Origin: Reichenbachiella versicolor
Lineage (GTDB): Bacteria; Bacteroidota; Bacteroidia; Cytophagales; Cyclobacteriaceae
Reading direction: 5' to 3'
NCBI RefSeq assembly: GCF_003171675.1
Contig: NZ_QFZQ01000006.1
Span: 124,001 to 188,000, forward strand
Length of the DNA stretch: 64,000 bases
Shown: positions 17,222 through 43,399 of the stretch, in pieces
Numbering within the stretch: position 1 is the stretch's first letter
Layout: every line of letters begins with the position of its first letter
Program-made: the position numbers and the translations under genes
Notes under the pieces: model-generated
The model's input: the letters and a program-made list of their open reading frames with translations, nothing else
Databases searched by the model: none
Told to the model about the DNA's origin: nothing

Positions 17222-18522
17222 TATACGAAACAACTAAATGTGCTGTAGCCTTTGCCGTTAAGCGTTTCTACCAGACACTTGAAGTCAAAGGCTATGACAA
17301 CGTCCCTCAGTCGGGTCCTATAATATTGGTGAGCAACCACCCAAACACACTGATGGATCCTTACATCATAGCTACTCAATTCAAAAGAAGAGTAGGTTTT
17401 CTTGGCAATGCATCCATTTTCATCAACCCCATTGCCAAACGGATTCTAACCTACTTCAATGTAATCCCAGTTTATAGAAAACAAGACGTCAAAGACGGAC
17501 AAAAAACAGATAATAGTTCAGCATTTAGTGCTTGCTATAAATATCTTGAAAACAATAATGCATTGTTAATATTCCCTGAAGGTACAAGTGTAAAAGAATA
17601 TCGCTTGCGAAAAATAAAAACTGGCACTGCTCGCATAGCTCTAGGTACTGAAAAACAAAACAACTTCAATCTTGGGGTAAAAATCCTACCTGTTGGACTT
17701 TACTATAACAACCCTACCCAATTTGGCAGCAAAGCATTTATGCAAATTGGAAAACCTATTGATATAAAGCAATTCAAAGAGTACTATCTAAAAGATGAAA
17801 TAGAAGGAGTACAATCATTAACTAAAGTAATTAGAAAATCCCTTACGGAGCTTACAATTAACATTAACAACAAAGAAGATGAACAGGTTTTCATTGATCT
17901 AAAACAAGTATATAAATCTCATCTTAAAGAACTCAACAAAGAACTGAAAGACTTCGAAATGGCTAAAGAAATGACCAATGCCATTATATACTTTAAAACC
18001 TCATTTCCTGAGAGATACAAATCCTTAAAGTCTCGAATCCACTTCTGCGCAGAATACATTAAAGACCACAAACTCAGAATACTTGAAGAAAAACCTAAAA
18101 AAAGACATTCTTTCGTATCCATCAGTAAGCTTTTGATTGGCCTCCCTCTTTTTGTATTTGGATGGCTGCAAAACGCCTTCCCATTCTATGTACCAGATTG
18201 GCTTTCTAGAAAATTAACAAATGAAATCGAGTACAAAGCGTCTATATTAGTTTCAATAGGTTTGTTACTATTTCCTACTTGGTACTTCCTATCCTCTTAT
18301 TTATTCATCCAAACTACCTCCTTTCACTGGAGCATAAATCTAGCATACATTGCATTGCTACCATTATCCGGTGTTTTTGCTATAAAATACAGTAATGTTT
18401 TCAAGAAATTAAAGACTGCTTTTCGTTCGAATAATACGAATTTTGCTGAGTTTAAAGAATCTAGAAAGGAGCTAATTACCGAACTAGACAAGGCAAGAGA
18501 AATATATCTTAACAGATTATAG
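17218..18522 (+). CDS. PlsC-type glycerolipid acyltransferase with C-terminal membrane segments
   Basis: The N-terminal half is a lysophospholipid acyltransferase domain: the acceptor motif is SNHPNTLMDP (near residue 40) and the second block is FPEGTS (near 121). Such enzymes acylate glycerol-3-phosphate or lysophosphatidate at the membrane. The C-terminal half holds a charged helical stretch and two or three hydrophobic segments (about 305-380). At 434 residues it is longer than classical PlsC and resembles the larger GPAT-like proteins. The exact acceptor is not predictable from sequence. It overlaps the MFS gene by 4 bp and precedes an arsC-like gene by 2 bp. Confidence 0.82.
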   Translation: MIYETTKCAVAFAVKRFYQTLEVKGYDNVPQSGPIILVSNHPNTLMDPYIIATQFKRRVGFLGNASIFINPIAKRILTYFNVIPVYRKQDVKDGQKTDNSSAFSACYKYLENNNALLIFPEGTSVKEYRLRKIKTGTARIALGTEKQNNFNLGVKILPVGLYYNNPTQFGSKAFMQIGKPIDIKQFKEYYLKDEIEGVQSLTKVIRKSLTELTININNKEDEQVFIDLKQVYKSHLKELNKELKDFEMAKEMTNAIIYFKTSFPERYKSLKSRIHFCAEYIKDHKLRILEEKPKKRHSFVSISKLLIGLPLFVFGWLQNAFPFYVPDWLSRKLTNEIEYKASILVSIGLLLFPTWYFLSSYLFIQTTSFHWSINLAYIALLPLSGVFAIKYSNVFKKLKTAFRSNNTNFAEFKESRKELITELDKAREIYLNRL

Positions 18523-18524
18523 TT

Positions 18525-18866
18525 ATGACTAAAATATATCACAACCCGAGATGCTCGAAGAGCCGTCAAGCTCTAGCACTATTAGAAGCAAAAGGCGAAG
18601 AAATAGAAATCATTAAATACCTTGATGAGACGTTTACTCCTGCAGAGCTTCAATCGGTAATAGACCTATTAGGTATTTGTGCTTTTGATTTAGTTCGTAA
18701 AGGAGAAACGATTTATAAAGAAGAGTACAAAGACAAAGAAATGACTGATGAAGAGTGGGTACTCGCTATGGTAGAAAATCCAAAATTAATCGAGCGCCCT
18801 ATCGTAATCAAAGACAATCAGGCAGTTATCGGTAGACCTCCAGAAAATGTTTTAGAAATCTTATAA
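18525..18866 (+). CDS. arsC: ArsC/Spx-family thioredoxin-fold protein (arsenate reductase-like)
   Basis: The 113-residue protein begins YHNPRCSKSRQAL, with the catalytic-type cysteine at residue 10, and ends with RPIVI...GRPPENV, the layout of glutaredoxin-dependent ArsC and its YfgD relatives. The sequence after the cysteine (SKSRQAL rather than GTSRNTL) is closer to YfgD-like members, whose substrate is less certain. No other arsenic genes are nearby. It is the last gene of a three-gene run and is followed by the tRNA cluster promoter. Confidence 0.82.
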   Translation: MTKIYHNPRCSKSRQALALLEAKGEEIEIIKYLDETFTPAELQSVIDLLGICAFDLVRKGETIYKEEYKDKEMTDEEWVLAMVENPKLIERPIVIKDNQAVIGRPPENVLEIL

Positions 18867-18881
18867 AATTTCAAAAAGCGC

Positions 18882-18914
18882 TTTGCAGTTCTCGATTTTA
18901 TTCCGCTATATTTG
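18882..18914 (+). promoter_or_regulatory. Bacteroidota-type promoter of the tRNA cluster
   Basis: TTTG (18882-18885) is followed after 21 bases by TATATTTG (18907-18914), an exact match to TTTG-N19-21-TAnnTTTG. The predicted start of transcription is about 40 bases before tRNA-Ser. Confidence 0.75.
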
Positions 18915-18962
18915 CACCTCGTTTCTGAGGGATACACATCAGAGACGGGGAAATTGATCCCT

Positions 18963-19051
18963 GGAGAGGTGGGTGAGTGGCTGAAACCACATGTTTGCTA
19001 AACATGCGAACGGGTTAAACCGTTCCGGGGGTTCGAATCCCCCTCTCTCCG
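18963..19051 (+). tRNA. tRNA-Ser (GCT)
   Basis: The 89-base cloverleaf has the long variable arm of a class II tRNA. The anticodon loop is TTGCTAA between the stem halves CATGT and ACATG, giving anticodon GCT. The T-arm is GGGGGTTCGAATCCCCC. The acceptor pairs GGAGAGG with TCTCTCC, with one G-T pair. No CCA is encoded. Confidence 0.95.
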
Positions 19052-19093
19052 CAGAGACACTTCAAATGGAAGTTTTGAAGTTAAAAAATTGCT

Positions 19094-19167
19094 GGTCTGC
19101 TAGCTCAACTGGATAGAGCAACTGCCTTCTAAGCAGTAGGTTTCAGGTTCGAGTCCTGAGCGGATCA
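19094..19167 (+). tRNA. tRNA-Arg (TCT)
   Basis: The 74-base cloverleaf has anticodon loop CTTCTAA between ACTGC and GCAGT, giving TCT. The T-arm contains GGTTCGAGTCC. The acceptor GGTCTGC pairs with GCGGATC through several G-T pairs. No CCA is encoded. Confidence 0.93.
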
Positions 19168-19189
19168 CTAGAAATTCGATTGTGAATTT

Positions 19190-19264
19190 CGGGGTGTAGC
19201 GTAGCCCGGTTATCGCGCCTGCTTTGGGAGCAGGAGGTCGCAGGTTCGAATCCTGCCACCCCGA
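19190..19264 (+). tRNA. tRNA-Pro (TGG)
   Basis: The acceptor CGGGGTG pairs with CACCCCG. The anticodon loop TTTGGGA lies between CCTGC and GCAGG, giving TGG. The T-arm is GCAGGTTCGAATCCTGC. The C at the first position is typical of bacterial tRNA-Pro. Confidence 0.95.
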
Positions 19265-19275
19265 CAATAAATTAC

Positions 19276-19347
19276 GCTCCGTTCGTCTAGGGGTTAGGAC
19301 GCCAGGTTTTCATCCTGGTAACAGGGGTTCGATTCCCCTACGGAGTA
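19276..19347 (+). tRNA. tRNA-Glu (TTC)
   Basis: The acceptor GCTCCGT pairs with ACGGAGT. The anticodon loop TTTTCAT lies between CCAGG and CCTGG, giving TTC. The T-arm is AGGGGTTCGATTCCCCT. It is the last tRNA of the cluster, just before a terminator. Confidence 0.95.
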
Positions 19348-19350
19348 CAA

Positions 19351-19379
19351 AAGCTCGATCATCTGATCGAGCTTTTTTT
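19351..19379 (+). terminator. Intrinsic terminator of the tRNA cluster
   Basis: AAGCTCGATCA (19351-19361) and TGATCGAGCTT (19364-19374) are a perfect 11-bp inverted repeat, followed by a run of T to 19379. It begins four bases after tRNA-Glu. Confidence 0.9.
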
Positions 19380-19460
19380 GTATCTAGCTATTTAAACACA
19401 TCTAAATCGGACCCTATAGTACTTCTATTATTGAAGAAGTTGAATATGGAGATATAATGG

Positions 19461-19500
19461 TTTCTGATGGTTTCTGATGGTTTCTGATGGTTTCCGATAC
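19461..19500. repeat. 10-bp tandem repeat (TTTCTGATGG)
   Basis: Three exact copies of TTTCTGATGG (19461-19490) are followed by a decayed fourth (TTTCCGATAC). The repeat lies between the tRNA terminator and the lacI-type gene, in a stretch of about 250 bp (19380-19627) with no recognisable gene. Confidence 0.8.
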
Positions 19501-19627
19501 TGATCAATCAGTAAAATTGGAAAGGTAAGTAATTGGAGATTTTTTGCTCACAAAAAGTTTTGATCGAAAAAGAATTAGATTTTTAAGTAACTGAGCTAAT
19601 ATCAAACCTATAATCTATCAATTCATG

Positions 19628-20662
19628 TTACGATGCATTTTCCAATCGAAGCTTTTCTTTGATACTTAAAGTAGATTCCCTGAGAACCAATTCCGTTTTC
19701 ATTTCTTCCTGAATAAGTTCTATCTGTCCATTTATGTGACTTAAAAGAATTTCCGCTGACCGAACTCCCATTCTGAAATCTGGTTGCTCTACAGTGCTCA
19801 GTTTAGGACTCATATGTAAAGCTATGGGTTCATCTGCAAAACCTACTACCGACACTTGATCAGGAACAGCTATATTCTCAGACTTTAACCTCTCTATTAC
19901 TTCAAAGGCTTGATAATCGCTATAAGTCATAACAGCTTCTATTTCTCCCTCCTTGATCAATCTAATTATCCTATCTAACCAATCTATCTCATCAATTGAT
20001 ATCTCCCACTTTTGATCGAAAGGCAAAGAATTTCTTTTCAAACCTTCATGGTATCCAACTTTTCTGGTGAACGAAGTAGAGAGATTCATAGGTCCTGAGA
20101 CATACCCTATTTTATTTCGCCCTTCCCTAGCCAAAGCATCTACTACTTTTAGACACCCCGTAAAATCGTCACTAATAACATAAGAGACATCTAAATCTTC
20201 ACACATTCGATCCACAAAAACCAACGGCGTATCGTCTTCTATAAGATCCAGATAATGATTGAATTCGGAGCTTTCACGAGCTAAGGAAGCTATAACTCCA
20301 TCCACTCTCATTGATCGCAGCATAGAGATAATTTCACGTTCTCTTTCAAGACTTCCTTCATGAACATTGATAATGAGATTAAAGTCTGTTTTATTAACTA
20401 CCTCATTGATACCTGATAAAACTCGGGCAAAATAATGATGAGTAAATTGGGGTAAAATGAGCCCAATCAACCCTGTTTTTTTCTTAGAAAGATTTGCTGC
20501 AAAGGGGTTAGGTTTATACCCCCACTTCTCTGCCAGCTCTAAGACCGAAGCTTTTGTTTTAGCACCTATTCTACCTTCATTGCTGAGCGCACGAGACACA
20601 GTAGAAGTAGACACTCCTAGGGCTTTCGCTAAGTCTTTAATACTTACTCGATCTTTGCTCAT
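19628..20662 (-). CDS. LacI/GalR-family transcriptional regulator
   Basis: The 344-residue protein begins with a LacI helix-turn-helix (VSIKDLAKALGVSTSTVSRAL, about residues 5-25, cited here only as a block) with the usual hinge helix after it. A periplasmic-binding-protein-like sensor domain (GLILPQFTHHYFARVLSGI onward) fills the rest. The frame is open ten codons earlier, but MSKDRVSIKDLA at 20662 is the normal family start. It lies downstream of, and in the same direction as, the anhydrosugar genes, with its own upstream gap. The likely role is sugar-responsive control of that set; its ligand is unknown. Confidence 0.88.
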   Translation of the reverse strand: MSKDRVSIKDLAKALGVSTSTVSRALSNEGRIGAKTKASVLELAEKWGYKPNPFAANLSKKKTGLIGLILPQFTHHYFARVLSGINEVVNKTDFNLIINVHEGSLEREREIISMLRSMRVDGVIASLARESSEFNHYLDLIEDDTPLVFVDRMCEDLDVSYVISDDFTGCLKVVDALAREGRNKIGYVSGPMNLSTSFTRKVGYHEGLKRNSLPFDQKWEISIDEIDWLDRIIRLIKEGEIEAVMTYSDYQAFEVIERLKSENIAVPDQVSVVGFADEPIALHMSPKLSTVEQPDFRMGVRSAEILLSHINGQIELIQEEMKTELVLRESTLSIKEKLRLENAS

Positions 20663-21215
20663 TGTTTTTGCTTGTTCAAACAAATTTAGCAATTTCCCTA
20701 AAATGCAATTATCATCCCCTTCCTCAAAAAAGGCCTCTTCATTCTATAAATAGATTTTTAAACTTATCTAGCTATTACTCGGGTTTGAAAATATCATTCT
20801 CTCGAAGATGGCTCTAATGGTTCAAACCTCAGATGCAGTTCCTCGACTCAAGAGCAAGAGGTATCTCAGGGGTTTTGTTCAATCTCGATATAAGAATCGG
20901 AGAATTAAACTCTTTCGACTAGTATTCCGATTAAAAAACTCTCTTTTTAAAATATTAAACTCTCTTATTAAGGCAGTAAAATTCATTCTACCTACATTTA
21001 AATTCTTTATTCTATTATTTACTCTTTAATAGAACAAAAAATATCCTTTCTCCACAATATTCAATCCTATTCTAAGTCACTTAAGTCTTTTTACCACTAT
21101 CAAACGTCTCTTAACAAAAGAAATAACTCTTATATTCTTCTATTAAATGCTTTACCTCTTTCAACACCTACTTTTTTAACCTAATAAATCAGTACTTTTC
21201 ACTGTTTACCACAAA
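20663..21215. other. Non-coding gap between regulator and sugar operon
   Basis: This stretch of about 550 bp is AT-rich with several short open frames, none with recognisable family features. It must contain the promoter of the LacI-type gene, but no clear TTTG/TAnnTTTG pair stands out. Confidence 0.5.
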
Positions 21216-21247
21216 AAAAGAGCTCGACAACATTGCCGAGCTCTTTT
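21216..21247 (-). terminator. Intrinsic terminator of the anhydrosugar operon
   Basis: AAAAGAGCTCG (21216-21226) and CGAGCTCTTTT (21237-21247) are a perfect 11-bp inverted repeat. Read on the minus strand it ends in a T-run (to 21213). It lies 56 bp after the stop of the RhaT-like gene. Confidence 0.88.
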
Positions 21248-21302
21248 AGCATTTCATTGATATCAAATCAATTAATATTCTTGACTTCCTTTTTGACTAG
21301 AG

Positions 21303-22307
21303 TTATCCTAACCCATTACCTATCGCCACTATGATAATTCCAATGATCATACAAGCAAGTCCAGTATAAAGAAGACCTTTTGCTTTTCCGGAGGCTTTTG
21401 CCCACTCACCTGTGATAATTCCTGACACGATTGCTACTGCTACCGAGACTGTATTAAAAATAGCATACCCTACTGTTCCTCCTGTAGCACCAAGCTTATA
21501 AGCTGCATATGCAAATGCCACTGATGCAGAGAAGTTGAAAATACCCATGATAGTAGCTAAAAATGCATTTTTCCCAAAACTTGGTGAAGCGAACTTACCC
21601 CATAGTTTTTTAGCGGTCAGTTGTTGAGCAAAATATGCTGCGATAGCAACTCCACCGGCCATGTATATGATATACATAACAGCTACAGAGCTCATCCAAG
21701 CTGGATTACCGTTTGCCTCACAAGCTTCAGCTATTACTCCGAAACCTACTGTATTTGCATAGCTAAATCCTGTAGCCAAAAGACCTCCGACTATTGCGAT
21801 GATGATACCTAAGCCCATTGAGCCATCAGAGCTATCTTCTCCTCCTTCATCTTTTTGACGGGTCATACCTGCTTTACCATTTGCTATTACTCCTATCAAT
21901 ACAACAAGAATACCTGCCATGATGGTAGAGAATACGTTCATTGCTGGTAAACCATCAACCATAAACGGTATCAATGATCCAACCAAAATAATAGTACCGA
22001 TGAAAATTGAGAAACCTAACGAAAGACCAATATGATTGATTGCTTTACCCCACATCATTACGCCGATACCCCATAACAAACTTGCTATGATCATTCCTGT
22101 CAAAACTCCTACCGGAATAGAAGCTAAAACTGCACCAAACCCGTCTATCAATGTAAACGCAGCGATATTGGGAATGACGAAAGTGTTAATTGCAAAAAAT
22201 AAACTCCAAGTATTTTCGAATTCAAAATCCTTTGTAAACTTTTCTGGTAGAGCATATAACCCTAGCAATAAACCTGCTAGCACCGCCCAAATAATTCCTA
22301 TTATCAT
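21303..22307 (-). CDS. RhaT-like sugar/proton symporter
   Basis: This 334-residue protein has about ten hydrophobic segments and resembles the L-rhamnose/H+ symporter RhaT of the drug/metabolite-transporter superfamily. The stretch LLWGIGVMMWGKAINHIGLS aligns by eye with the corresponding block of E. coli RhaT. No rhamnose isomerase, kinase or aldolase is nearby, so the substrate is more likely a sugar from the same operon, such as galactose or 3,6-anhydro-L-galactose; that is inference from context. It is the last gene before the operon terminator. Confidence 0.8.
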   Translation of the reverse strand: MIIGIIWAVLAGLLLGLYALPEKFTKDFEFENTWSLFFAINTFVIPNIAAFTLIDGFGAVLASIPVGVLTGMIIASLLWGIGVMMWGKAINHIGLSLGFSIFIGTIILVGSLIPFMVDGLPAMNVFSTIMAGILVVLIGVIANGKAGMTRQKDEGGEDSSDGSMGLGIIIAIVGGLLATGFSYANTVGFGVIAEACEANGNPAWMSSVAVMYIIYMAGGVAIAAYFAQQLTAKKLWGKFASPSFGKNAFLATIMGIFNFSASVAFAYAAYKLGATGGTVGYAIFNTVSVAVAIVSGIITGEWAKASGKAKGLLYTGLACMIIGIIIVAIGNGLG

Positions 22308-22329
22308 AATTCCTTAGTTTATAGTCGAG

Positions 22330-22402
22330 AGTAAATAGTCCAAAGACATAATCCACTTCTCATTAATAATTACATTCTATTAAAGTCCATCTTCTATGGA
22401 CT
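22330..22402. repeat. Intergenic inverted repeat, copy B
   Basis: The arms are AGTAAATAG (22330-22338) and CTATGGACT (22394-22402). A compact hairpin, AGTCCAT (22384-22390) with ATGGACT (22396-22402), is nested in the right half. It fills the gap between the mutarotase and transporter genes. Confidence 0.5.
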
Positions 22403-22414
22403 GTGGTTGATTGA

Positions 22415-23461
22415 TTAAAATTCTAATTTGAATACGGTTGTACTCTTAAATTCTTCTCCTGCCTTTGTGATTGACTTTGGAGAACCTTCTATATTCGGCC
22501 CATTTGGCCATCTATGAGTCTCACAGCAGAATCCTTTATATTGACCATATTGAAGACCATTTTCTCTCTTCAGGTCATCCGAAGTATACTTTCCAGTGTA
22601 TAACAGCATACTTGGTTCAGTACTGCTAACTTCTAGTTTGATTCCTTTAGCTTTATTTTCTACAGCTGCATATGGCTTCAACTCTTCTGCTGCATTATCA
22701 AAAACATAGAAGTGTTCAAATCCACCCCCCATAGCTTCATGAACATCTCCTATCACTTTACCTTCTCTTAGGTCATCTACAGCACCTGCAACGCTTATCA
22801 CTCCAGTCCCTGCTCCAGTTTCATCACAGTCAATCTTCTTATCTGTATATACTGTAGCCGTATGTCCCAATACCTTTTCCTCAAAACCTGATAAGTTCCA
22901 GTATGTATGGTTGGTCATTGACAATGGTGTATCAGCATCAGTAGTTGCTAAGTATTCGATTTTGATTTCATTTTCACTAGTTAGCATGAAAGACACTTGA
23001 GCTTCAACTGTACCTGGAAAACCTTCTTGTCCGTCTGGAGAGGTCAATGAAAATACTAATGTATTTCCTTTTATCTCTGAAGACCAGACTTGCTTATCAA
23101 AGCCTTTAAGTCCACCATGTAGATTGTTTTTACCGACCATTTCAGCTAGCTGATAATCTTTGCCGTTTAGTGAAAACTTCGCGTCTTTTATTTGAGAGCA
23201 GTACCTACCAACTGTACAGCCAAAGTACGGAGCGTTCGCTTTATACTCTTCTCCGAAATAGCCTTCTAGTGTATCAAATCCACAAGCTATTTCCATTTCT
23301 TTTCCCTCTACCGGTAAAGTGATCGATGTGATCGTCGCACCATATTCGGTGATTTTCACTTTCATTCCATTGGTATTGGTCAAAGTAAAGATCTTGACCT
23401 CTTTACCTTGAAGTTGGCCAAAATTTTCTTGTTCTATATTAGTCTTATCTGTCGTCATCAT
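22415..23461 (-). CDS. galM: Aldose 1-epimerase (galactose mutarotase family)
   Basis: Aldose 1-epimerase interconverts alpha and beta anomers of galactose and similar sugars. The 348 residues show the GalM landmarks: ITEYGATITSI near the N-terminus, GCTVGRYC, NNLHGG, TNHTYWNLSG with its substrate-binding histidine, and the C-terminal CCETHRWPNGPN with the catalytic-type glutamate. There is no signal peptide, so it acts in the cytoplasm. In an operon for agar sugars it would serve released D-galactose. Two adjacent ATG codons open the gene; either could be used. Confidence 0.9.
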   Translation of the reverse strand: MMTTDKTNIEQENFGQLQGKEVKIFTLTNTNGMKVKITEYGATITSITLPVEGKEMEIACGFDTLEGYFGEEYKANAPYFGCTVGRYCSQIKDAKFSLNGKDYQLAEMVGKNNLHGGLKGFDKQVWSSEIKGNTLVFSLTSPDGQEGFPGTVEAQVSFMLTSENEIKIEYLATTDADTPLSMTNHTYWNLSGFEEKVLGHTATVYTDKKIDCDETGAGTGVISVAGAVDDLREGKVIGDVHEAMGGGFEHFYVFDNAAEELKPYAAVENKAKGIKLEVSSTEPSMLLYTGKYTSDDLKRENGLQYGQYKGFCCETHRWPNGPNIEGSPKSITKAGEEFKSTTVFKLEF

Positions 23462-23502
23462 TTCTGTTTGGTTTCGGTTTAAGTTTTTATGTTCATAGTC
23501 TA

Positions 23503-23583
23503 TAGACCACAGTCAATAGTTTGAATGGTCAAGTAGATAAAATGTTTTTCAACTGTCATTATTCTCCTATCGACTTTGGTCTA
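23503..23583. repeat. Intergenic inverted repeat, copy C
   Basis: The arms TAGACCACAGTCAATAG (23503-23519) and CTATCGACTTTGGTCTA (23567-23583) are complementary at 15 of 17 positions, around a 47-base AT-rich loop. This is the best-preserved member of the family. It lies between the cycloisomerase and mutarotase genes. Confidence 0.7.
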
Positions 23584-23591
23584 TTATATCA

Positions 23592-24680
23592 CTACACTTT
23601 ATGTGGTGCTAATTTTTCCCAATTGAAGGTAACGCCGGTTCCTGGTTCGTCTGATGCTACAGCTCTGTAGTTTTCAGCGACAAGTGGTCTCGTTGTATAT
23701 TCATCGATTGGAAAACTATGCACTTCCAGCCAGCCTGCATTAGTCTGAGCACTGATCAAGCTTACGTGAAGCTCTTGCATACCATGCGCGCACACTGGAA
23801 TATTGTGTTTTCTTGCTAATTCTGCTACTCTTAACCACCCTGTGATACCTCCACAATTGGATGCATCTGGCTGGATAAAACTAAGTTTAGCTTGATCAAA
23901 AGCATATTCAAATTCATGAATCGTATGAAGGTTCTCTCCCATCGCAAGTGGTACATTCGTAGCATCTGCAATCTTTCCAAAACCTTTATAATCATCTGGA
24001 ATTGTTGGTTCTTCAAACCATGTAATATTGAATTCTTCCATTCTTTTTGAACATTCAATGGCTTTCTCTACACTCATCGAGTAGTTAGCATCTACCATGA
24101 AAGTCACATCTGGACCTATGAATTCTCTTACTGCTTTGATTCGCTCTATATCTTCATCTAGGTTCTCTCTACCGATTTTAATTTTCACGGCTTTGTAGCC
24201 ACGGTCAAGATATTCCTGCATGTTTTTTAGAAGCTTCTCGATTGGAAATTGTAAATCAATACCTCCACAGTAAGCTTTACAAGTCTTGTCAGCTCCTCCA
24301 GCCATTTGCCATAATGGCTTGTCAGCATTCTTGCACTTGATATCCCATAGTGCGATATCAACTGTAGAAACAGCAAAAGAGACTATACCGCCTCTTCCTA
24401 CATAGTGCATATGCCATTCTAAAAAGTCATATATACCGTCAATATCAGTACCATCCATTCCTATCAATGCTGGATTGATATCATTCTCTAGCATTGCCTT
24501 GATTGAATGACCACCTTTACCTCCTGTATAAGTATAGCCAGTACCTTCGCTTCCATCTTCCAAAGTAATCGTAGTAGTGATTAACTCGAAGTGGGTGTGA
24601 TCACCGTGCTTTGCATCACTCAATACTTCTGGAAGAGGCACATTAAACAACTGTACCTTTATATCTTTTATTTTACTCAT
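23592..24680 (-). CDS. 3,6-anhydro-L-galactonate cycloisomerase (enolase superfamily)
   Basis: The 362-residue protein belongs to the mandelate racemase/muconate-lactonizing branch of the enolase superfamily. The catalytic set is in place: KxK at K166-I-K168, metal ligands D197, E223 or E224 and E249, and the HG pair at H299. The N-terminal capping-domain stretch [17 protein letters not shown] and the run YTYTGGKGG match my memory of the characterised Vibrio anhydrogalactonate cycloisomerase. That enzyme turns 3,6-anhydro-L-galactonate into 2-keto-3-deoxy-L-galactonate in red-algal sugar catabolism. The neighbours supply the preceding and following steps. A sugar-acid dehydratase of other specificity (such as fuconate) is the main alternative. 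Confidence 0.82.
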
Positions 24681-24699
24681 AAATTAGTCTGCAGACCAA

Positions 24700-24747
24700 A
24701 GTCAATAGCCCATAGAATAGTTGACTACGGGCTATCTTCTATGGACT
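24700..24747. repeat. Intergenic inverted repeat, copy D
   Basis: The arms are AGTCAATAG (24700-24708) and CTATGGACT (24739-24747), preceded on the left by CAGACCA as in copy C. A nested perfect hairpin pairs ATAGCCC (24705-24711) with GGGCTAT (24729-24735). It fills the gap between the aldehyde dehydrogenase stop and the cycloisomerase start. Confidence 0.6.
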
Positions 24748-24749
24748 TA

Positions 24750-26189
24750 TTAGTATTTCACGTAGAATGTTTTCTTCTCAAGGTATTGTTCGAAACCGTA
24801 CTTCCCGTCTTCTCCTCCACTACCAGACTTTTTGTATCCGTTGTGGAAACCTTGATGCTGCTCGCCATGACCTCTATTGATATAGATTTCACCGAACTCA
24901 AGCTCATCTGTCAACTTAGCGATATTCTTGTAGTTCTGAGTGAATACCATTGCAGCTAGACCGTACTCACATTCGTTAGCCCATTCGATTACTTGATCAA
25001 AATCATTGAATTTGATCACTGGAAGAATTGGACCAAATGATTCCTCATGTACAATCGTCATATCCTGAGTTACATTCTCCAAGATTGTTGGCTCGAACCA
25101 GTGTCCTTTCTCGAATTGAGCACCTTCAGGCTTCTTACCGCCTATTGCTACTGTTGCGCCTTCTTCGAGTGACTTTTGTACTAAATGCTCCATGTGAGTC
25201 AACTCCGAAGCATTCACTTTAGGGCCCATTTCTACGTCTCTTTCAAGTGGGTTACCCAACTTGATTTCTTTAGTCTTAGCTATGAATTTCTCCATGAATT
25301 TGTCATAGATATCTTCATGTACATACATTCTTTCATTACATGTACATACCTGACCACAGTTATCCCATCTAGAGTGGAATGTAGCAGCTACTGCTTCGTC
25401 TATATCTGCATCTGCAAATACGATTGCTGGAGCTTTTCCTCCTAACTCAAGCTGAACATGAGTCAAGTTTTCAGAAGCAGTTTTGAAAATCTGTTGACCT
25501 GCAGGAGTAGAGCCTGTCATAGTTACCATTTTGGTGATTGGAGATGCTACTAATGCATTACCCAATACTCTACCAGATCCAGTCACAATATTTAATAGAC
25601 CTTTAGGAAGACCTACTTTGTTGGCGATATCACCAAGTTCAAGAGTCGCTAGTGGAGTCTCTTGAGTAGGTTTTACAACGATTGAATTACCTGCTACTAA
25701 AGCTGGACCTATTTTTCTACCTGCAAGTGCTAATGGGAAGTTCCAAGCTGTAATAGCTACTACTACTCCTCTTGGAATTTTGTGAATATAAATGTGCTCA
25801 TTTTCATTGTCAGATTGAACAATATCTCCTTCAAACTGTCTAGCCCAATCACAAGCGTATTCAATGAAAGTTGCGGTCACTTCAACTTCAATTTCAGCTA
25901 AAGAGATGATTTTACCTTGCTCTCTAGTCAGTAATTCAGCCAATCTTGATTTGTTGGCTCTGATCTCAGCAGCAAACTTTCTCATTAGCTCAGCTCTTTT
26001 ACGAGCAGGCCATTTTTTCCATTCTTTTTGAGCTGCTTCCGCTGCTTTTAGTGCGTTTTCAGCGTCAGCTTCAACACCCATAGCGGTAGTTCCTACTTGA
26101 CTTTCATCAATTGGACTATAGATAGATGCTCTTTCTCCAGTTGTAGACTCCGTCCACTCACCGTTGATAAATAATTGGTAGTCTTTCAT
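24750..26189 (-). CDS. AldA-like aldehyde dehydrogenase, probable 3,6-anhydro-L-galactose dehydrogenase
   Basis: The 479 residues are a full NAD(P)-dependent aldehyde dehydrogenase: the catalytic glutamate lies in ELGGKAP, the nucleophilic cysteine in GQVCTCNERMYV, and the cofactor-site run is AWNFPLAL. By eye the whole protein follows E. coli lactaldehyde dehydrogenase AldA, including EGDIVQSD and GEQHQGFHNGYKKSG. Known L-anhydrogalactose dehydrogenases are, as I recall, AldA-like, oxidising the sugar to 3,6-anhydro-L-galactonate. The cycloisomerase for that product is the adjacent downstream gene. Lactaldehyde dehydrogenase activity remains possible. A stem-loop resembling a terminator lies just upstream (26262-26295). 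Confidence 0.82.
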   Translation of the reverse strand: MKDYQLFINGEWTESTTGERASIYSPIDESQVGTTAMGVEADAENALKAAEAAQKEWKKWPARKRAELMRKFAAEIRANKSRLAELLTREQGKIISLAEIEVEVTATFIEYACDWARQFEGDIVQSDNENEHIYIHKIPRGVVVAITAWNFPLALAGRKIGPALVAGNSIVVKPTQETPLATLELGDIANKVGLPKGLLNIVTGSGRVLGNALVASPITKMVTMTGSTPAGQQIFKTASENLTHVQLELGGKAPAIVFADADIDEAVAATFHSRWDNCGQVCTCNERMYVHEDIYDKFMEKFIAKTKEIKLGNPLERDVEMGPKVNASELTHMEHLVQKSLEEGATVAIGGKKPEGAQFEKGHWFEPTILENVTQDMTIVHEESFGPILPVIKFNDFDQVIEWANECEYGLAAMVFTQNYKNIAKLTDELEFGEIYINRGHGEQHQGFHNGYKKSGSGGEDGKYGFEQYLEKKTFYVKY

Positions 26190-26261
26190 TTCTTTATTTA
26201 GTAATGGGTACTGAGTATTTAAGTACTAGTACGACGTTGTTTAAGGTTTATTTAAAAAAGC

Positions 26262-26295
26262 AAATGGCATCAAATGCACAGCTTTGATACCATTT
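26262..26295 (-). terminator. Terminator-like stem-loop inside the sugar operon
   Basis: AAATGGCATCAAA (26262-26274) and TTTGATACCATTT (26283-26295) form a 13-bp stem (one G-U pair in the minus-strand RNA) with an 8-base loop. On the minus strand it is followed by GCTTTTTT. It lies after the SDR gene and before the aldehyde dehydrogenase gene, so it may act as partial terminator or as mRNA 3'-end stabiliser. A 10-bp perfect palindrome, GTACTAGTAC (26223-26232), follows it. Confidence 0.7.
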
Positions 26296-26306
26296 AATAA
26301 TGCTAT

Positions 26307-27077
26307 TTAGCGTCCCATCCAGCCGCCATCTACTAGCATGATAGATCCATGCATATAAGCTCCAGCTTCAGAACATAGGGTCACTACTGGTCCTGCAAAA
26401 TCCTCTGGTAATCCCCATCTTCCTGCTGGAATTCTTGATAGAATTGACTCTGATCTTACTGGATCATTTCTTAAAGCTTCTGTATTATCCGTATTGATAT
26501 AACCTGGTGCGATAGCGTTTACATTGACACCTTTTCCAGCCCACTCGTTAGCGAAGGCCATAGTCAACTGTCCTACTGCCCCTTTAGAAGCTGCATAACC
26601 TGGTACTGTAATTCCTCCTTGGAATGTCAATAGTGATGCAGTGAAGACAATCTTACCTGATCCTCTTTCTACCATCTCTTTTCCAATCTCTCTAGTCAAA
26701 ATGAACTGAGCGTTTTGATTCACTTCTATCACTGTATCCCACATATCATCTGGGTGCTCAGCTGCTGGAGTTCTAAGGATAGTTCCTGCGTTGTTTACCA
26801 AAATATCAATTACTGGATAGTCACCTTTCACAGCTTTGATGAATTCATATAAGCTTTCTCTCTTAGAAAAATCACATTGGTATGCTTTGAAGTTTTTACC
26901 TCTAGCTTTTACCTCTTTTTCTACTTCACTTCCTTCTAGCTCTAGAGATGCACTTACACCTATAATATCAGCTCCAGCTTCTGCCAATCCAACGGCCATT
27001 GCTTTACCAATACCTCTTTTACATCCTGTTACTAAGGCAACTTTGCCGTCTAATTTAAATTTATCTAGTATGCTCAT
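26307..27077 (-). CDS. KduD-like short-chain dehydrogenase, probable 2,5-diketo-3-deoxygluconate reductase
   Basis: The 256 residues form a classical SDR: the cofactor motif is TGCKRGIG (17-24), followed by NNAG, and the catalytic set is N120, S148, Y161 and K165. The C-terminal half, with NVNAIAPGYINTDNT and RIPAGRWGLPED, follows KduD of pectin catabolism by eye. KduD reduces 2,5-diketo-3-deoxygluconate to 2-keto-3-deoxy-D-gluconate. In the L-anhydrogalactose pathway the same diketo acid is made from 2-keto-3-deoxy-L-galactonate, so the enzyme fits that last step. It is followed by a terminator-like hairpin. Confidence 0.83.
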   Translation of the reverse strand: MSILDKFKLDGKVALVTGCKRGIGKAMAVGLAEAGADIIGVSASLELEGSEVEKEVKARGKNFKAYQCDFSKRESLYEFIKAVKGDYPVIDILVNNAGTILRTPAAEHPDDMWDTVIEVNQNAQFILTREIGKEMVERGSGKIVFTASLLTFQGGITVPGYAASKGAVGQLTMAFANEWAGKGVNVNAIAPGYINTDNTEALRNDPVRSESILSRIPAGRWGLPEDFAGPVVTLCSEAGAYMHGSIMLVDGGWMGR

Positions 27078-27101
27078 TTGTTTGTTTAGTATATAATCAG
27101 G

Positions 27102-27151
27102 AGACGATGGTCGATAGAACTCTGTGAACTACAAGCCATCGTCTATCAACT
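27102..27151. repeat. Intergenic inverted repeat, copy E
   Basis: AGACGATGG (27102-27110) and CCATCGTCT (27136-27144) are a perfect 9-bp stem. The family arms appear as GGTCGATAG (27109-27117) and CTATCAACT (27143-27151). It occupies the gap between the zinc dehydrogenase stop and the SDR start. Confidence 0.6.
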
Positions 27152-27154
27152 GTT

Positions 27155-28174
27155 TTATGCTTGGCAGTCAATTAAATATTTCATCCCTGCTGGGTTGTTA
27201 TCAATCGTCTCAAAAATCGATTGGATATTGTCTAGGGTGTCAACTTTGGTAGTTAACTTTTCGAATGGAATAAAGCCTGAAGCTGCTATTCTGATTGCTT
27301 CTTCATAATCATCTTCTTCGTAAAGCCTAGCACCTAATAGCTCAATTTCAGACCAGAAGAATTTGAAAAGATCTACTTTCTTTTTCTCTCCACCGTGAAT
27401 TGCTACCATTACTATTCTTCCTCTCACATTGAGAACTTCTGTCATCGCATCTACACCTGGCTGTGATCCAGAAACTTCAAATGCACAATCGATCATCTTC
27501 TCCTCAGTCAACTCGCTGATTTTTTCAGTCAAGCTTTCTTTGATTGGGTTGATCGTCGTGAATCCAAGCTCTGACAGCATCTCAAGTCTGTTCTCATTTA
27601 CCTCTGAAATGATCACGTTAGCTCCTTTTTCCTTTAACACATATGCGATCAAAGTTCCGATAGGTCCTCCTCCTATTACTAGGCAATTTTCTCCAGCTTG
27701 AACTCTACCAATTTTCACGTCGTGCGTAGCTACTGACAATGGCTCTATAAATGCTCCATTTTTCAATGACATTCCTTCTGGAAGTTTGTGCAAAGTGTAT
27801 GCAGGAACTGTCCAACTGTTTTGGAATGCTCCAGCTGAATCAATACCAATAAACTTTAAATTTTTTCCTACATGTGCGTGGCCTTTGTCGAATGGGTGCG
27901 GCTCTCCAAAGTGCAATGGTCTTACTGCTACTTTGTCTCCAACCTTTACGTTAGTTACACCTTCTCCAATTTCTGCTACAGTTGCACTTGCTTCGTGACC
28001 TACAGTCTGTGGTGGGTTTACTCTTGCGTCCATTACGCCGTGATAGATGTGTACATCTGTACCACAAACGCCACAATACGCTACATCTAATCTTACTTCT
28101 CCTGCGCCTGGGGCTACCTTGGTCCCTTCGCCTATCTCAAATACTCCTTTACTTACGTATTTTGCTGCTTTCAT
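27155..28174 (-). CDS. Zinc-type alcohol dehydrogenase, probable 2-keto-3-deoxy-L-galactonate 5-dehydrogenase
   Basis: The 339 residues form a medium-chain dehydrogenase. The catalytic zinc region shows C37 in CGVCGTD and GHE at 59-61, with a further ligand-like glutamate in FIEPLSV. The cofactor motif is VIGGGPIGT. The structural-zinc lobe, where four spaced cysteines are usual, instead reads 'VRPLHFGEPHPFDKGHAHVGKN' without cysteines. The family includes sorbitol, threonine and galactonate dehydrogenases. The neighbours suggest oxidation of 2-keto-3-deoxy-L-galactonate at C5 to the 2,5-diketo acid. It is the promoter-proximal gene of the set; the assigned substrate is inference. Confidence 0.75.
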   Translation of the reverse strand: MKAAKYVSKGVFEIGEGTKVAPGAGEVRLDVAYCGVCGTDVHIYHGVMDARVNPPQTVGHEASATVAEIGEGVTNVKVGDKVAVRPLHFGEPHPFDKGHAHVGKNLKFIGIDSAGAFQNSWTVPAYTLHKLPEGMSLKNGAFIEPLSVATHDVKIGRVQAGENCLVIGGGPIGTLIAYVLKEKGANVIISEVNENRLEMLSELGFTTINPIKESLTEKISELTEEKMIDCAFEVSGSQPGVDAMTEVLNVRGRIVMVAIHGGEKKKVDLFKFFWSEIELLGARLYEEDDYEEAIRIAASGFIPFEKLTTKVDTLDNIQSIFETIDNNPAGMKYLIDCQA

Positions 28175-28212
28175 TTGTATTGTTGTATAATTTCAATCTT
28201 ACCAAAAAAACG

Positions 28213-28234
28213 GCACTTTGAACAGCCAAAGTAC
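28213..28234. promoter_or_regulatory. Candidate operator upstream of the sugar operon
   Basis: GCACTTTG (28213-28220) and CAAAGTAC (28227-28234) form an inverted repeat matching at 7 of 8 positions around a 6-base centre. It ends about 40 bp before the first gene. An operator for the LacI-type regulator is one reading; the centre lacks the CG typical of many LacI-family sites. Confidence 0.4.
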
Positions 28235-28802
28235 CTACATGTAATAGCCCAGTACGAACGAAAAATCGCCGTATACAAATATTGTTTGTCTAAACTTCAA
28301 CCTCCTTCATACGCACTCAACGATTACTGAACAAACTGAACAGAGCCTCTTGTTGACATGGATTAATCCTCAACAGAGATGTTTTGTTCTATCATCGCAA
28401 AAGAATCACAACCTCAACCTTCTTCTGAGCAGATTTGTTTTTAATATGAACATATTCGTCCACTGAATGAATTACATCTATGAAAATGAGATTTTCAAAT
28501 AAAATTTTTGCGAGAGTGTGATCATAAGGTTAACCCTGAAACAAAATGATTATTCAAACTCAACACTTATGACTTATCATCTTGACAATTACTTATTCTA
28601 GTAGTTGAGTAAAACTTATGCTTATGACATCTCTCTAAACTTATCAAGCTATCTCTGCTATTGAATATCTATGGTATTCTTATCACTGAGCTTATCCTAT
28701 TCCCTAAAACAAAACTGCCCTTTAACAAGAGACAGATTGTGGGGTTTTAACAGTAGAAATTCCAATCATTATATCCTTATAGAGATAGTTCGTTTATCTT
28801 GT
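28235..28802. other. Non-coding gap between GH86 gene and sugar operon
   Basis: About 570 bp without a supportable gene. It must hold the promoter of the sugar operon and the 3' end of the GH86 transcript. I see no convincing terminator hairpin and no complete TTTG/TAnnTTTG pair. Confidence 0.5.
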
Positions 28803-31013
28803 TCATTCGACTATCATTTTACTTGTATAACTATCCCCATCTGCAATCATATTGAGTATATATACGCCTGCTTCCAAATCGGCAATATTAATTTCAACTT
28901 GACCAGACTTAACCTTGATTGTTTTGACTGTTTTACCATCCAGTGTTTTGAAATTCAATAGTCCATGTATATTCCTTGAAGGAAACCCTACTTCAATTGA
29001 ATTGGTGGCTGGATTAGGGGTTATATCTAGTGATTTTTTATTTATACTAGTTTTTATTCCTAGACTTAGGTTTTCATCATTGTATTCACTGCGTTTGATC
29101 TTTCTAGAGTGTTCAAAGACTTGCAATGCTACACTACTAACATGTCCACCATCGTCTTCAAAAATAACTTCAACTGAATTAGAAGCAGCAATCAAATAGT
29201 TTGGAACCTCGATCTCCAATACTCCAAAAAAGGTTTCCCGATCTACTTGCTTATCTCCGCGAATATTGGCGGGAACATATAAGTCTTCTCCATTGAATTT
29301 GACTATTGGTCGAAGATTTTTTCCATGATCTCTACCTAAGCCTAATCTTAATATACCCTCTCCATTAGTACCTTTTGACACATTATTTATGGAGAAAGTA
29401 ATTGGTCGACCAGACTTAATCTCTTGTAGATAAGTCTTAGCATAATATTTGGTCTCTTTAGATACATGATTCATTGTGACATCATTCGATAATTCGATCT
29501 TCATTATTATCGTTCCTTCTGGCTTTAAGGTCATTGTTTTTGGAATACTTGATCCCGTAGTCCTGGAAATTTCCGTTCCCTGATTTTTCAGAAACATTTG
29601 CTTAACTTCAACACTACTTACTTGGTTAGTTTCTAGTCCAAGTGCATTGAGTGAGACTTCTACTGGGTCAAATTTTAAATTGTTGATAATAACGAAAGCA
29701 ATGTCACCTTCAACATAACCATCTACCATCAAATCCAAATTGGTTGAGTATGTGTCGATTCTCGTTCCCTTTACTTCTGCCCACAACTCGTACACCTTGA
29801 CCATATCTGTATACACCCATTGTCCGGATAAGGCATTCGGTTCGTCTTCCATCCTGAGTAAACGATGATTGTAAGTATTATCCACTGATGTAGTTCCCCA
29901 TTTAGCTTTGATAGGAAGGAAGTTAACAGTTTTGTTAATGATATCTGCACGCTCCATAAACTGGAGCATCATCGAGTTAACAGACTTGTTGTGTAACCAG
30001 TCTCTGTATCTGGACCATGGACCAAAATAATCATGCATCTGTGCTCCATATTCTGAAATCATAAATGGCTTGACTTTATTAAATTTCATATAACTGTACT
30101 GCTCCATAATATCGAAGGTAGCTTCCATATTGCTCCCTTTTCGGTATTGTTCTTTTCCTTGAAGAGCTGGAAAGTCATAAAGGTGAATAGTCCAATAATC
30201 CATCTTTTCTCCTGCAATATCCATGAAGGCCTTCCATCTGTCATTCCATTCTCCAAAATTGTCTGCTTCATGATCTGGAAATGCTGTACAATATCCCCCT
30301 ATCTTAATATTTTGATTATAGTCATGAATGGCATCTGCTACTCCATTATGGAATTTGAAGATATCTTGAAGGCTCTCATCACCAAATTCAAATAGATGCC
30401 AAACTGGCTCATTAATTACTTCTAAGTATTTCGGAGTAGGTTGTCCAGAAGCCCCTCCATTTCCATAAGTAGCTTGAATGTATCTTCCCATATACTCCCC
30501 TGTCGCTGTTCCAAATGATTCTTCCCCGGTATCAACTTGGGAAAAAGACCATTTTTCAGAACCTATCTCTTGACCATCAGGCCAAAACGGGTGTAATTGA
30601 GCCGCTAGTATCTGATCGTTTCGATCTTCATAGGCATGCCAGTCGGTTTTGTTGATATACTTGTTTTTAATAGAAGTTCCGTTTGCAATAATGTCTACTG
30701 GATTCGCATATCCTTTCCTTGCAGGATCTTCTCCTACTGCGTTGTTAAGATACCATGTGATAGTCCCAGTATTCCTCCCGAGATAAACATCGTATCCTTT
30801 CAGAAAGTGCTCTCTTACATTTGCAATCTTATTATCTCCATCCCATTCATCTTCAATCACATCTGCATGAATGGCTACAAATTTGTTTCGGTCAAATTGA
30901 TCTATATCTCCTAATTGATGTTTTACATCAAAATTGACATCTATTACTATCTGTGCCTGTAAATAGCTCGTAACTCCTAGTATCAAAGTCAATATCACTC
31001 CCCTCTTGTTCAT
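28803..31013 (-). CDS. Secreted GH86 beta-agarase/beta-porphyranase with T9SS sorting domain
   Basis: The 736-residue protein has a signal peptide (about 1-20, ending LQA), then a glycoside-hydrolase clan A barrel. The acid/base glutamate is probably E202 in EVINEPVWH and the nucleophile E321 in ISEYGAQ. The opening FDRNKFVAIHAD and the later KYLEVINEPVW fit my memory of GH86, a family of endo-acting agarases and porphyranases. A beta-sandwich region follows, and the last 70 residues (NPATNSIEVGF onward) are a type A sorting domain for type IX secretion. Whether it prefers agarose or sulfated porphyran cannot be told. It follows the SusC/SusD/lipoprotein genes, separated from them by an intrinsic terminator. 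Confidence 0.82.
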   Translation of the reverse strand: MNKRGVILTLILGVTSYLQAQIVIDVNFDVKHQLGDIDQFDRNKFVAIHADVIEDEWDGDNKIANVREHFLKGYDVYLGRNTGTITWYLNNAVGEDPARKGYANPVDIIANGTSIKNKYINKTDWHAYEDRNDQILAAQLHPFWPDGQEIGSEKWSFSQVDTGEESFGTATGEYMGRYIQATYGNGGASGQPTPKYLEVINEPVWHLFEFGDESLQDIFKFHNGVADAIHDYNQNIKIGGYCTAFPDHEADNFGEWNDRWKAFMDIAGEKMDYWTIHLYDFPALQGKEQYRKGSNMEATFDIMEQYSYMKFNKVKPFMISEYGAQMHDYFGPWSRYRDWLHNKSVNSMMLQFMERADIINKTVNFLPIKAKWGTTSVDNTYNHRLLRMEDEPNALSGQWVYTDMVKVYELWAEVKGTRIDTYSTNLDLMVDGYVEGDIAFVIINNLKFDPVEVSLNALGLETNQVSSVEVKQMFLKNQGTEISRTTGSSIPKTMTLKPEGTIIMKIELSNDVTMNHVSKETKYYAKTYLQEIKSGRPITFSINNVSKGTNGEGILRLGLGRDHGKNLRPIVKFNGEDLYVPANIRGDKQVDRETFFGVLEIEVPNYLIAASNSVEVIFEDDGGHVSSVALQVFEHSRKIKRSEYNDENLSLGIKTSINKKSLDITPNPATNSIEVGFPSRNIHGLLNFKTLDGKTVKTIKVKSGQVEINIADLEAGVYILNMIADGDSYTSKMIVE

Positions 31014-31057
31014 TTGATATATTGTTTATTCAAAAAATGGTTTAGGATAAAAAAAGA

Positions 31058-31087
31058 AACAGAGATCGATATACACCGATCTCTGTT
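31058..31087 (-). terminator. Intrinsic terminator between lipoprotein and GH86 genes
   Basis: AACAGAGATCG (31058-31068) and CGATCTCTGTT (31077-31087) are a perfect 11-bp inverted repeat with an 8-base loop. On the minus strand it is followed by TCTTTTTTTA. Only about 45 bp remain before the GH86 start, too little for an obvious separate promoter, so GH86 may depend on read-through. Confidence 0.85.
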
Positions 31088-31100
31088 CCCAGTTAAAGTA

Positions 31101-32648: not shown

Positions 32649-32666
32649 GTCCATAATAGTTTAGTC

Positions 32667-34403: not shown

Positions 34404-34421
34404 CTTTCCGTGCTTTATCAA

Positions 34422-37400: not shown

Positions 37401-37553
37401 TTTTACTACAACTGTAGCTCCTGTGACAGTCGAACCATCAGAAGCATCTTTCACCTTTCCTGAAATCTTATTTTGGGCTTTTGTTGATAGAGTAACTCCC
37501 AAAAATAAGAATAGCATTACTGTACGTTTTAAAAACGTAAATAGTCGTTTCAT
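34422..37553 (-). CDS. susC: SusC/RagA-family TonB-linked outer-membrane transporter, set 1
   Basis: This is the TonB-dependent channel that imports oligosaccharides into the periplasm. The 1043 residues comprise a signal peptide (about 1-26), a carboxypeptidase-regulatory-like domain (GKVKDASDGSTVTGATV onward), a TonB-box/plug region (VVVGYGIQKKKEVTGAVAS) and a 22-strand barrel. PLYVVDGIPYQDNP in the plug is the usual SusC signature. It opens the set-1 operon. The divergent regulator gene lies 294 bp away, with paired direct repeats between them. Confidence 0.95.
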   Translation of the reverse strand: MKRLFTFLKRTVMLFLFLGVTLSTKAQNKISGKVKDASDGSTVTGATVVVKGTTTGTITDIEGDYSFSVPSDAETLVVSFIGYKSKEVIIGGRSQIDIQLEIDIEELEEVVVVGYGIQKKKEVTGAVASLKADELLKNATPDLGDAIQGQVAGVNVQASSGRPGEVANIQIRGLGSVAEGASGPLYVVDGIPYQDNPRIANEQIESIEVLKDGAAAAIYGVRASNGVILITTRRGKAGQMKVDFSAYAGIQNITSGTPLLNTQDQFYVNHEKLKPLNQEPQALFFNPDALSINNDFVGDIQNDNALMQSYNLNLMGGEKNLTFNANVNYFDQEGVLINSDYDRITTRVNGTYTKGKFKAFASMSFSEEQQSQEPWQIYEQAVVQMPYNPGINALDPLGNDEFFIISDNVEQYSYLSQIINNRDERTINTNNVALNLEYEFFEGFSYKVNLGRNDWNYRRKFFEPKMLVFGPNSVSGSGRTQAVLTEEFVFNKKTTWENILNYQKKFGVHNLGVTGVLAYEAFDSKDVTTKVNGLASNNTQVFDAGISPEKPLGSNSSRNLAGKMLRVQYGYDERYLLSASIRHDGTSVFSKDNRYQSFFGLSAGWNISEESFFQNISELNFINSLKIRGSYAQVGNQSTDGAYDWQPIIETGVNYPFGGEGEEVLGIGSIQRRYYNPLIGWETTISRNIGVDMAFLENRVTFTMDFYNNDKEDMILPEQVAPSSGVWQTRDADSYNRQTVNAGNMVNKGVELALGYRESSSEFKWSINATFTKNTNEVTNLNGIEGLAFAGGRPVASRGDRVDYTTYLVQGYEAGAFFLVKNQGVIKTEEQLEKYQAGMKETYMIGDLMYEDQLTIDTDGDGIMDARDSVITDADRVYRGSGMPEFELGLAFNAQYKGFDLFVQAYYSYGAEIYNGSKLHAYGTSRHRDMLYMWTPSNPDSDIPMARNNQEHSNFRGRSDYYLEDGSYLRIRNITLGYTFPSKVFNDRISKLRLYFTAQNPFTFTKYEGYDPEVGGDGLFTRGVDSGSYPITRKFLGGIQLQF

Positions 37554-37695
37554 TCACTTATGCTTTTATTACAAAAATTTAGTCCTGCACCTCCTTCCTC
37601 GGTATTATCCTATATGTATATCGGTCAATATTGAGCAAGAAAATGCATGATCAAATATGAAAACCAAACTGTCTATCAACGAGAAACATTACTAT

Positions 37696-37753: not shown

Positions 37754-37847
37754 CTTTTGTAATTCATCTGCATTTTGAGGCTTTATTTACGCTTTTTTCC
37801 TTTATTGCTTATCACAATTCGATTATTAACTACTGGATGAAAAGACT

Positions 37848-41599: not shown

Positions 41600-41611
41600 C
41601 GCTCTATTAAT

Positions 41612-43381: not shown

Positions 43382-43399
43382 TTCGATTCTGTTTAAGGA

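Follow-up and report, generated by a model that had tools for sequence, protein, structure and literature searches.

A predicted 3,6-anhydro-L-galactose operon of Reichenbachiella versicolor and its divergent zinc-dependent dehydrogenase

Two of the organisms for which the breakdown of 3,6-anhydro-L-galactose (AHG) has been described, Pseudoalteromonas atlantica and Paraglaciecola hydrolytica, are Gammaproteobacteria. The published route leads from AHG through 3,6-anhydro-L-galactonate (AHGA), 2-keto-3-deoxy-L-galactonate (L-KDGal) and 2,5-diketo-3-deoxy-L-galactonate (L-DDGal) to 2-keto-3-deoxy-D-gluconate (KDG) (PMC5943477, PMC10163077), and both organisms reach KDG by the four reactions (Lee 2014, cited in PMC5943477) that we also propose for a six-gene operon of Reichenbachiella versicolor, a member of the Bacteroidota. 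The operon lies in a window of 64,000 nucleotides, the whole stretch of DNA analysed here (positions 124001-188000 of contig C19, NZ_QFZQ01000006.1, in a genome of 5.25 Mb in 22 contigs). We are highly confident that this marine bacterium carries here the L-anhydrogalactose operon that is standard in agar degraders, in which steps 1 and 2 are assigned by identity to characterised enzymes and steps 3 and 4, transport and regulation are inferred.

The comparisons with other systems refer to the accessible parts of the publications cited. In Aquimarina sp. ERC-38, consecutive locus tags are occupied by a zinc-dependent dehydrogenase (ZnDH), a KduD-like short-chain dehydrogenase/reductase (SDR), the AHG dehydrogenase and the cycloisomerase; the closest characterised PDB entries for the latter three are 4Z9Y, 6J75 and 5XD7, as in R. 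versicolor, GH86 genes belong to the same polysaccharide utilization locus (PUL), and the kinase and the aldolase are encoded elsewhere (PMC10163077). The two systems differ in that GH2 and GH117 genes adjoin the four Aquimarina genes (PMC10163077), whereas the GH117 gene of R. versicolor is on another contig. The agarose PUL of Bacteroides uniformis NP1 likewise contains AHG isomerase and dehydrogenase genes, GalM and GH86, together with a RhaT-like gene that is upregulated and has been suggested to import AHG, but it carries a KDG kinase gene inside the cassette, and the accessible text does not name the ZnDH-SDR pair (PMC5849685). The initial annotation had put forward the RhaT-like protein of the operon as a candidate anhydrogalactose or galactose importer, not known to have been described; a RhaT-like anhydrogalactose importer had already been suggested in 2018 (PMC5849685). 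Flammeovirga pacifica WPAGA1 has adjoining AHG dehydrogenase and cycloisomerase genes, with activity obtained from crude enzymes, but the pathway is described there as far as KDGal, without steps 3 and 4 (PMC5385347, PMC6581685). In Zobellia galactanivorans the dauA-D genes also specify oxidation of an anhydrogalactose followed by cycloisomerisation, and the cluster includes an induced DMT symporter; the substrate, however, is the D-enantiomer, a kinase and an aldolase follow, and the Dau enzymes are only 35% and 31% identical to the L-enzymes of Vibrio (PMC5698469). The pathway, the adjacency of the four genes and the GH86 context are therefore already published and not new (PMC10163077, PMC5943477).

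In R. versicolor six open reading frames (ORFs) follow one another on the minus strand from 28174 down to 21303, separated by gaps of 69-130 bases. Their positions and kinds, including those of the mutarotase and the RhaT-like gene, are as the initial annotation had them; strand and Pfam families are given in Table 1. The cycloisomerase aligns over its full length with 5XD7, a solved 3,6-anhydro-L-galactonate cycloisomerase (639 bits, 266/360 residues identical, 74%), and the next distinct PDB protein, the 'putative racemase' 2OVL, reaches 303 bits. It contains the motifs KIKIG from residue 166, DAN at 197, EEP at 223, GEN at 248 and HG at 299, and the initial annotation had described its catalytic residues as complete; H299 is retained, and it is at the residue aligned with H299 that 5XD9 departs from 5XD7. 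These features fit EC 5.5.1.25. The step-1 dehydrogenase contains ELGGK at 248 and GQVC at 279 and is 68% identical (324/479) to 6J75, with 745 bits as opposed to 446-447 bits for lactaldehyde dehydrogenase (Aldehyde dehydrogenase A; 2OPX, 447), which fits EC 1.2.1.92. 6J75 is named as a 3,6-anhydro-alpha-L-galactose dehydrogenase (PMC10163077). The alignment proposed in the initial annotation thus supports steps 1 and 2 by close identity to characterised enzymes, and the agar-sugar pathway can be read from the sequence in this lineage with good confidence as far as these two steps.

The gene set recurs in other genomes. When public genomes were searched with the cycloisomerase as query, 80 of the 84 loci found were retained: 47 on the Bacteroidota side (one a Rhodothermaceae metagenome-assembled genome), 32 from Proteobacteria and one from Opitutaceae, which was counted in neither group. 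When cycloisomerase, dehydrogenase and SDR were required to be 60% identical, ZnDH, RhaT and GalM 45%, and coverage had to reach 80%, all four enzymes were found in 36 of the 47 Bacteroidota-side loci and all six genes in 32, always in the order and on the strand seen in the window. These 32 loci show that the linkage is not due to chance. Three Zobellia loci (L012, L013 and L033) also have this gene order. A homologue of the RhaT-family protein at least 45% identical is present in 41 of the 47. One or more of the four enzymes is missing from 11 loci, four of which are short (4.4-13.3 kb). Two Bacteroidota loci, L039 and L083, have in the corresponding position an SDR of 35-36% identity and a ZnDH of 57%; in L023 no ZnDH was matched, and the SDR match is only partial, with 89% identity over 62% of the query. 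Among the proteobacterial loci, ZnDH and SDR occur together in 26 of 32. RhaT, GalM and a dehydrogenase at the 60% threshold are absent from the flanks of all 32; an aldehyde dehydrogenase matched at 24-49% is present in 21.

Steps 3 and 4, oxidation by the ZnDH and reduction by the SDR, are assigned from protein family, conserved operon position and the published route; the initial annotation had placed all four enzymes in the pathway, and the last two are of the right families and hold the expected place in the operon. The SDR has the motif YAASK at 161 and its best PDB match is 4Z9Y (247 bits). The ZnDH has the motifs GVCGTD at 35, GHE at 59 and EPL at 144, and its solved relatives are distant (best PDB match 137 bits). 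As would be expected of an L-KDGal 5-dehydrogenase (EC 1.1.1.389), it shares an operon with the AHG dehydrogenase, the cycloisomerase and a KduD-like SDR. The association was also seen in 194 genomes sampled from the order, searched at E <= 1e-100 for the cycloisomerase and E <= 1e-60 for the ZnDH. The cycloisomerase was found in 12 and the ZnDH in 18; a ZnDH of at least 82% identity occurred in exactly the 12 cycloisomerase genomes, in each of them on the same contig as the cycloisomerase and 3.47-3.75 kb from it, start to start. The other six carry only copies of 50-59%, with no cycloisomerase at the threshold. The 12 consist of the window genome and eleven members of a single family (f19), so that they do not represent 12 independent events; 15 other listed genomes of the same family have neither gene at those thresholds. 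The rule does not extend to every member of the Cytophagales: Dyadobacter jejuensis and a Fulvivirga, both placed in this order by NCBI taxonomy, pair the cycloisomerase with a ZnDH of 51-55%.

Several observations weigh against the proposed pathway. The step-1 dehydrogenase also scores 623 bits with 3K2W, which is named a betaine-aldehyde dehydrogenase. The best NCBIfam model for the SDR, TIGR01832 (kduD), gives 314.8 bits, under the cut-off of 338.85, and the protein can be called KduD-like only. Seven loci of full size, 18.5-21 kb long (L010, L020, L023, L034, L039, L041 and L083), are also missing one or more of the four enzymes at the thresholds used, within the flank. The sugar kinase candidate for the reactions beyond KDG falls below the NCBI cut-offs of its best models (212 of 440 and 475 of 700 bits). 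Six of the 18 sampled genomes with a ZnDH match have no cycloisomerase, which places the ZnDH also outside the pathway, and ZnDH-SDR pairs occur in other operons as well.

The last point was examined in eight stretches that contain second ZnDH copies or copies from genomes without cycloisomerase, one of them only 3.5 kb long. A KduD-like SDR of 71-83% identity lies near the ZnDH copy in five of the eight. Encoded nearby in two such stretches are IclR regulators, an RraA-like aldolase, a sodium:solute symporter, CoA-transferases and a further RhaT-family protein. ZnDH and SDR thus form a module that also occurs outside the AHG operon. This makes the assignment of steps 3 and 4 less certain; it also suggests that the two enzymes may act on an intermediate common to several routes. 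Two genomes that also possess the anhydrogalactose operon have a second ZnDH-SDR pair with a RhaT-family gene (L134:483-9263 and L133:7129-15870), in L134 together with solute-binding-protein-like proteins, two CoA-transferases and a GFO/IDH oxidoreductase; these stretches are putative sugar-acid operons.

It could be argued from the recurrence of the pair that only steps 1 and 2 proceed as proposed, and that the ZnDH and the SDR act on another substrate or another common intermediate while L-KDGal enters a kinase/aldolase route. The window ZnDH falls into a separate clade whose sister group comes from genomes that lack the cycloisomerase (see below), and in Vibrio EJY3 L-KDGal is believed to reach central metabolism without these steps (PMC5943477, in its accessible part). 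We nevertheless consider this improbable in view of the fixed operon position of ZnDH and SDR in 36 of the 47 Bacteroidota-side loci, the co-occurrence of ZnDH and cycloisomerase in 12 of 12 genomes of the sampled order, and the presence of both genes in 26 of the 32 proteobacterial loci. The four-step route to KDG remains the preferred reading.

The ZnDH itself belongs, by its sequence, to a clade distinct from the usual form of the Bacteroidota operons. It is 84% identical to its nearest named relative, the ZnDH of Marinoscillum furvescens (Cytophagales), but on average only 54.8% to 37 other Bacteroidota-side ZnDHs, which are 80.9% identical among themselves. The same comparison gave 82.5% versus 82.2% for the SDR (35 rows), hence no split, and 76.8% versus 80.9% for the cycloisomerase (47 rows, among them that of Opitutaceae). 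A careful tree was built from 34 rows, hand-picked from the 86 of a quick tree; in it the window ZnDH falls into a clade of seven rows (support 100/100) that is sister (97/84) to five ZnDH copies from genomes without cycloisomerase, and the other Bacteroidota operon ZnDHs form a separate clade of 15 rows (100/99). The quick tree agrees, with a support of 85 for the sister relation. Also the sole Aquimarina locus in the trees (L014), which is not ERC-38, lies in a clade other than that of the window. Two genomes, G049 and G077, contain the window-type ZnDH plus a second copy inside the other operon clade. The other form was not found in the window genome, where a flavobacterial query matches the window gene at 54% and the rest at no more than 35%.

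That the ZnDH has merely evolved fast was considered and rejected, since G049 and G077 hold both forms and the neighbouring SDR shows no extra divergence. In another scenario, a ZnDH of a different paralogous clade has replaced the step-3 enzyme of an otherwise orthologous operon in one lineage, to which the window genome, Marinoscillum and a single family of relatives with large genomes belong. We give this scenario an even chance; a partial counter-example is the step-1 dehydrogenase, which is also somewhat divergent (71.2% versus 81.5%, 40 rows), although far less so than the ZnDH. If the replacement did take place, L-KDGal 5-dehydrogenase activity would have been recruited more than once, or it would be an older and more general property of the family, put to use in further sugar-acid operons as well. 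No paper on the two-clade split was found in our searches of open-licence PMC papers. The divergence is a modest evolutionary side finding and also a warning that the transfer of annotation is weaker for step 3 than for steps 1 and 2.

In the proposed sequence of events, agarose would be cut by GH86 and its PUL partners, either outside the cell or in the periplasm, and AHG would be released by a GH117 whose gene lies on another contig. The RhaT-family permease may bring AHG into the cell, and the mutarotase may interconvert its anomers. The aldehyde dehydrogenase would then oxidise AHG to AHGA, which the cycloisomerase would open to L-KDGal. The ZnDH is predicted to oxidise C5 and the SDR to re-reduce it with the opposite configuration, yielding KDG, after which a kinase candidate and a 2-keto-3-deoxy-6-phosphogluconate (KDPG) aldolase encoded elsewhere would complete the route. 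The statement in the initial annotation that one gene set encodes the whole route holds for the enzymes from AHG to KDG; the set ends there, and the GH117, the sugar kinase candidate and the KDPG aldolase are on other contigs. The GH117 gene lies at C16:107090-108277; its product shares 72% identity with an Algibacter protein for which 3P2N, a 3,6-anhydro-alpha-L-galactosidase, is the best PDB match. In all, the genome has nine GH117-like matches to the Algibacter GH117, this one and eight at 37-44%. Of two KDPG-aldolase family genes, one scores above the NCBI cut-off (376 versus 275 bits) and adjoins the sugar kinase.

An operon of this composition might instead serve 3,6-anhydro-D-galactose from carrageenan, since the Zobellia cluster combines the same kinds of enzyme with a DMT sugar symporter (PMC5698469). 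This is very unlikely. The window cycloisomerase reaches only 147 bits with DauB (5OLC) as compared with 639 for the L-enzyme, the neighbouring GH86 is closest to agarases, and in the published D-route, as far as its accessible description goes, kinase and aldolase act after the cycloisomerase, with no inversion at C5 (PMC5698469). Moreover, the genome has a separate DauB-like cycloisomerase gene (660 bits to 5OLC) with a RhaT-family gene upstream (C19:202-4954). The same stretch contains an HpaI-like aldolase and an ORF of 492 amino acids that is taken for an aldehyde dehydrogenase by its size and position rather than by a family search. It is probably a locus for the D-anhydrogalactose of carrageenan, which perhaps uses the HpaI-type aldolase. 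Upstream of it are SusC/D-sized ORFs and a hybrid histidine kinase. The L-sugar (agar) and D-type (carrageenan) sets, each with its own RhaT-family gene, form a clean pair for the study of the enantiomer specificity of the transporters.

Enolase, SDR, aldehyde dehydrogenase and RhaT families also occur in fuconate, rhamnonate, galactarate and lactaldehyde pathways, but that the operon encodes one of these is hardly credible, given cycloisomerase scores of 101 bits for L-fuconate dehydratase, 106 for rhamnonate dehydratase and 205 for talarate/galactarate dehydratase against 639, the lower score of the step-1 dehydrogenase with lactaldehyde dehydrogenase than with 6J75, and a RhaT-family protein that remains under all five NCBIfam RhaT cut-offs (best 312 versus 369 bits). 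The initial annotation had stated, as one outcome that would overturn it, that fuconate, rhamnonate or galactarate enzymes come out as the best matches, and this was not the case. The transporter passes the Pfam cut-off for the RhaT family and is not identified as an L-rhamnose symporter by the NCBIfam equivalogs.

Table 1. Features of the operon and its surroundings (window coordinates)
Feature	Position	Strand	Basis
LacI-family regulator, downstream, possible controller	19628-20692	-	Pfam LacI and Peripla_BP_3
Terminator-like hairpin just 3' of the RhaT-family gene	21216-21247	-	14-pair stem and T run; consensus match only
RhaT-family transporter, proposed anhydrogalactose importer	21303-22307	-	Pfam RhaT PF06379, 58 bits, cut-off 27
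Aldose 1-epimerase (mutarotase, GalM)	22415-23461	-	Pfam Aldose_epim PF01263; above the NF008277 subfamily cut-off, below TIGR02636
3,6-Anhydro-L-galactonate cycloisomerase, step 2	23592-24680	-	Pfam MR_MLE; PDB 5XD7
3,6-Anhydro-L-galactose dehydrogenase, step 1	24750-26189	-	Pfam Aldedh; PDB 6J75
KduD-like SDR, proposed L-DDGal reductase forming KDG, step 4	26307-27077	-	Pfam adh_short; TIGR01832 kduD; PDB 4Z9Y
Zinc-dependent medium-chain dehydrogenase (ZnDH), proposed L-KDGal 5-dehydrogenase, step 3	27155-28174	-	Pfam ADH_N/ADH_zinc_N; trees; co-occurrence with cycloisomerase
GH86, closest to agarases, with type IX secretion (T9SS) tail	28803-31013	-	PDB matches; Pfam porphyranase-named domains and Por_Secre_tail
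Three ORFs upstream of GH86: SusC-like, SusD-like, exported protein (import part of a PUL)	31101-37553	-	SusC/SusD by reading of the sequence, not by family call

The hairpin 3' of the RhaT-family gene is likely the end of the operon; terminator-like sites in the region number 15, against 9.6 (sd 3.1) in shuffled sequences. A second terminator-like hairpin with a T run (28212-28235) lies about 38 bases upstream of the ZnDH start, within the 628-base gap, and could terminate the GH86 transcript or serve as a leader element. An Rfam scan of 18400-38200 yielded only four tRNAs, with no known leader RNA at the gathering threshold in this gap, and promoter predictions were near chance (66 versus a mean of 57.5, sd 6.8). 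The closest protein to the LacI-family regulator across the 80 relative loci is only 33% identical. A search of 12 intergenic stretches for palindromes and common words revealed no palindromic site common to the regions upstream of the operon and of the regulator, and regulation of the operon by the LacI-type gene is therefore unsupported.

The GH86 gene lies upstream of the operon, as annotated initially. Its best PDB match is 5TA1 (644 bits), followed by the beta-agarase 8H97 (640 bits), and the porphyranase 4AW7 scores 245; the closest solved relatives thus point to a probable agarase, but the Pfam domains have porphyranase names. Of the ORFs upstream of GH86, that at 31101-32654 has no Pfam match. 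Farther upstream, a second group of SusC/D-sized ORFs beside a sulfatase (39872-48543, the sulfatase at 46801-48543) possibly serves a sulfated galactan. At 55862-57867, a C5-cytosine DNA methylase with a MerR-type helix-turn-helix domain adjoins an Eco47II-type restriction endonuclease.

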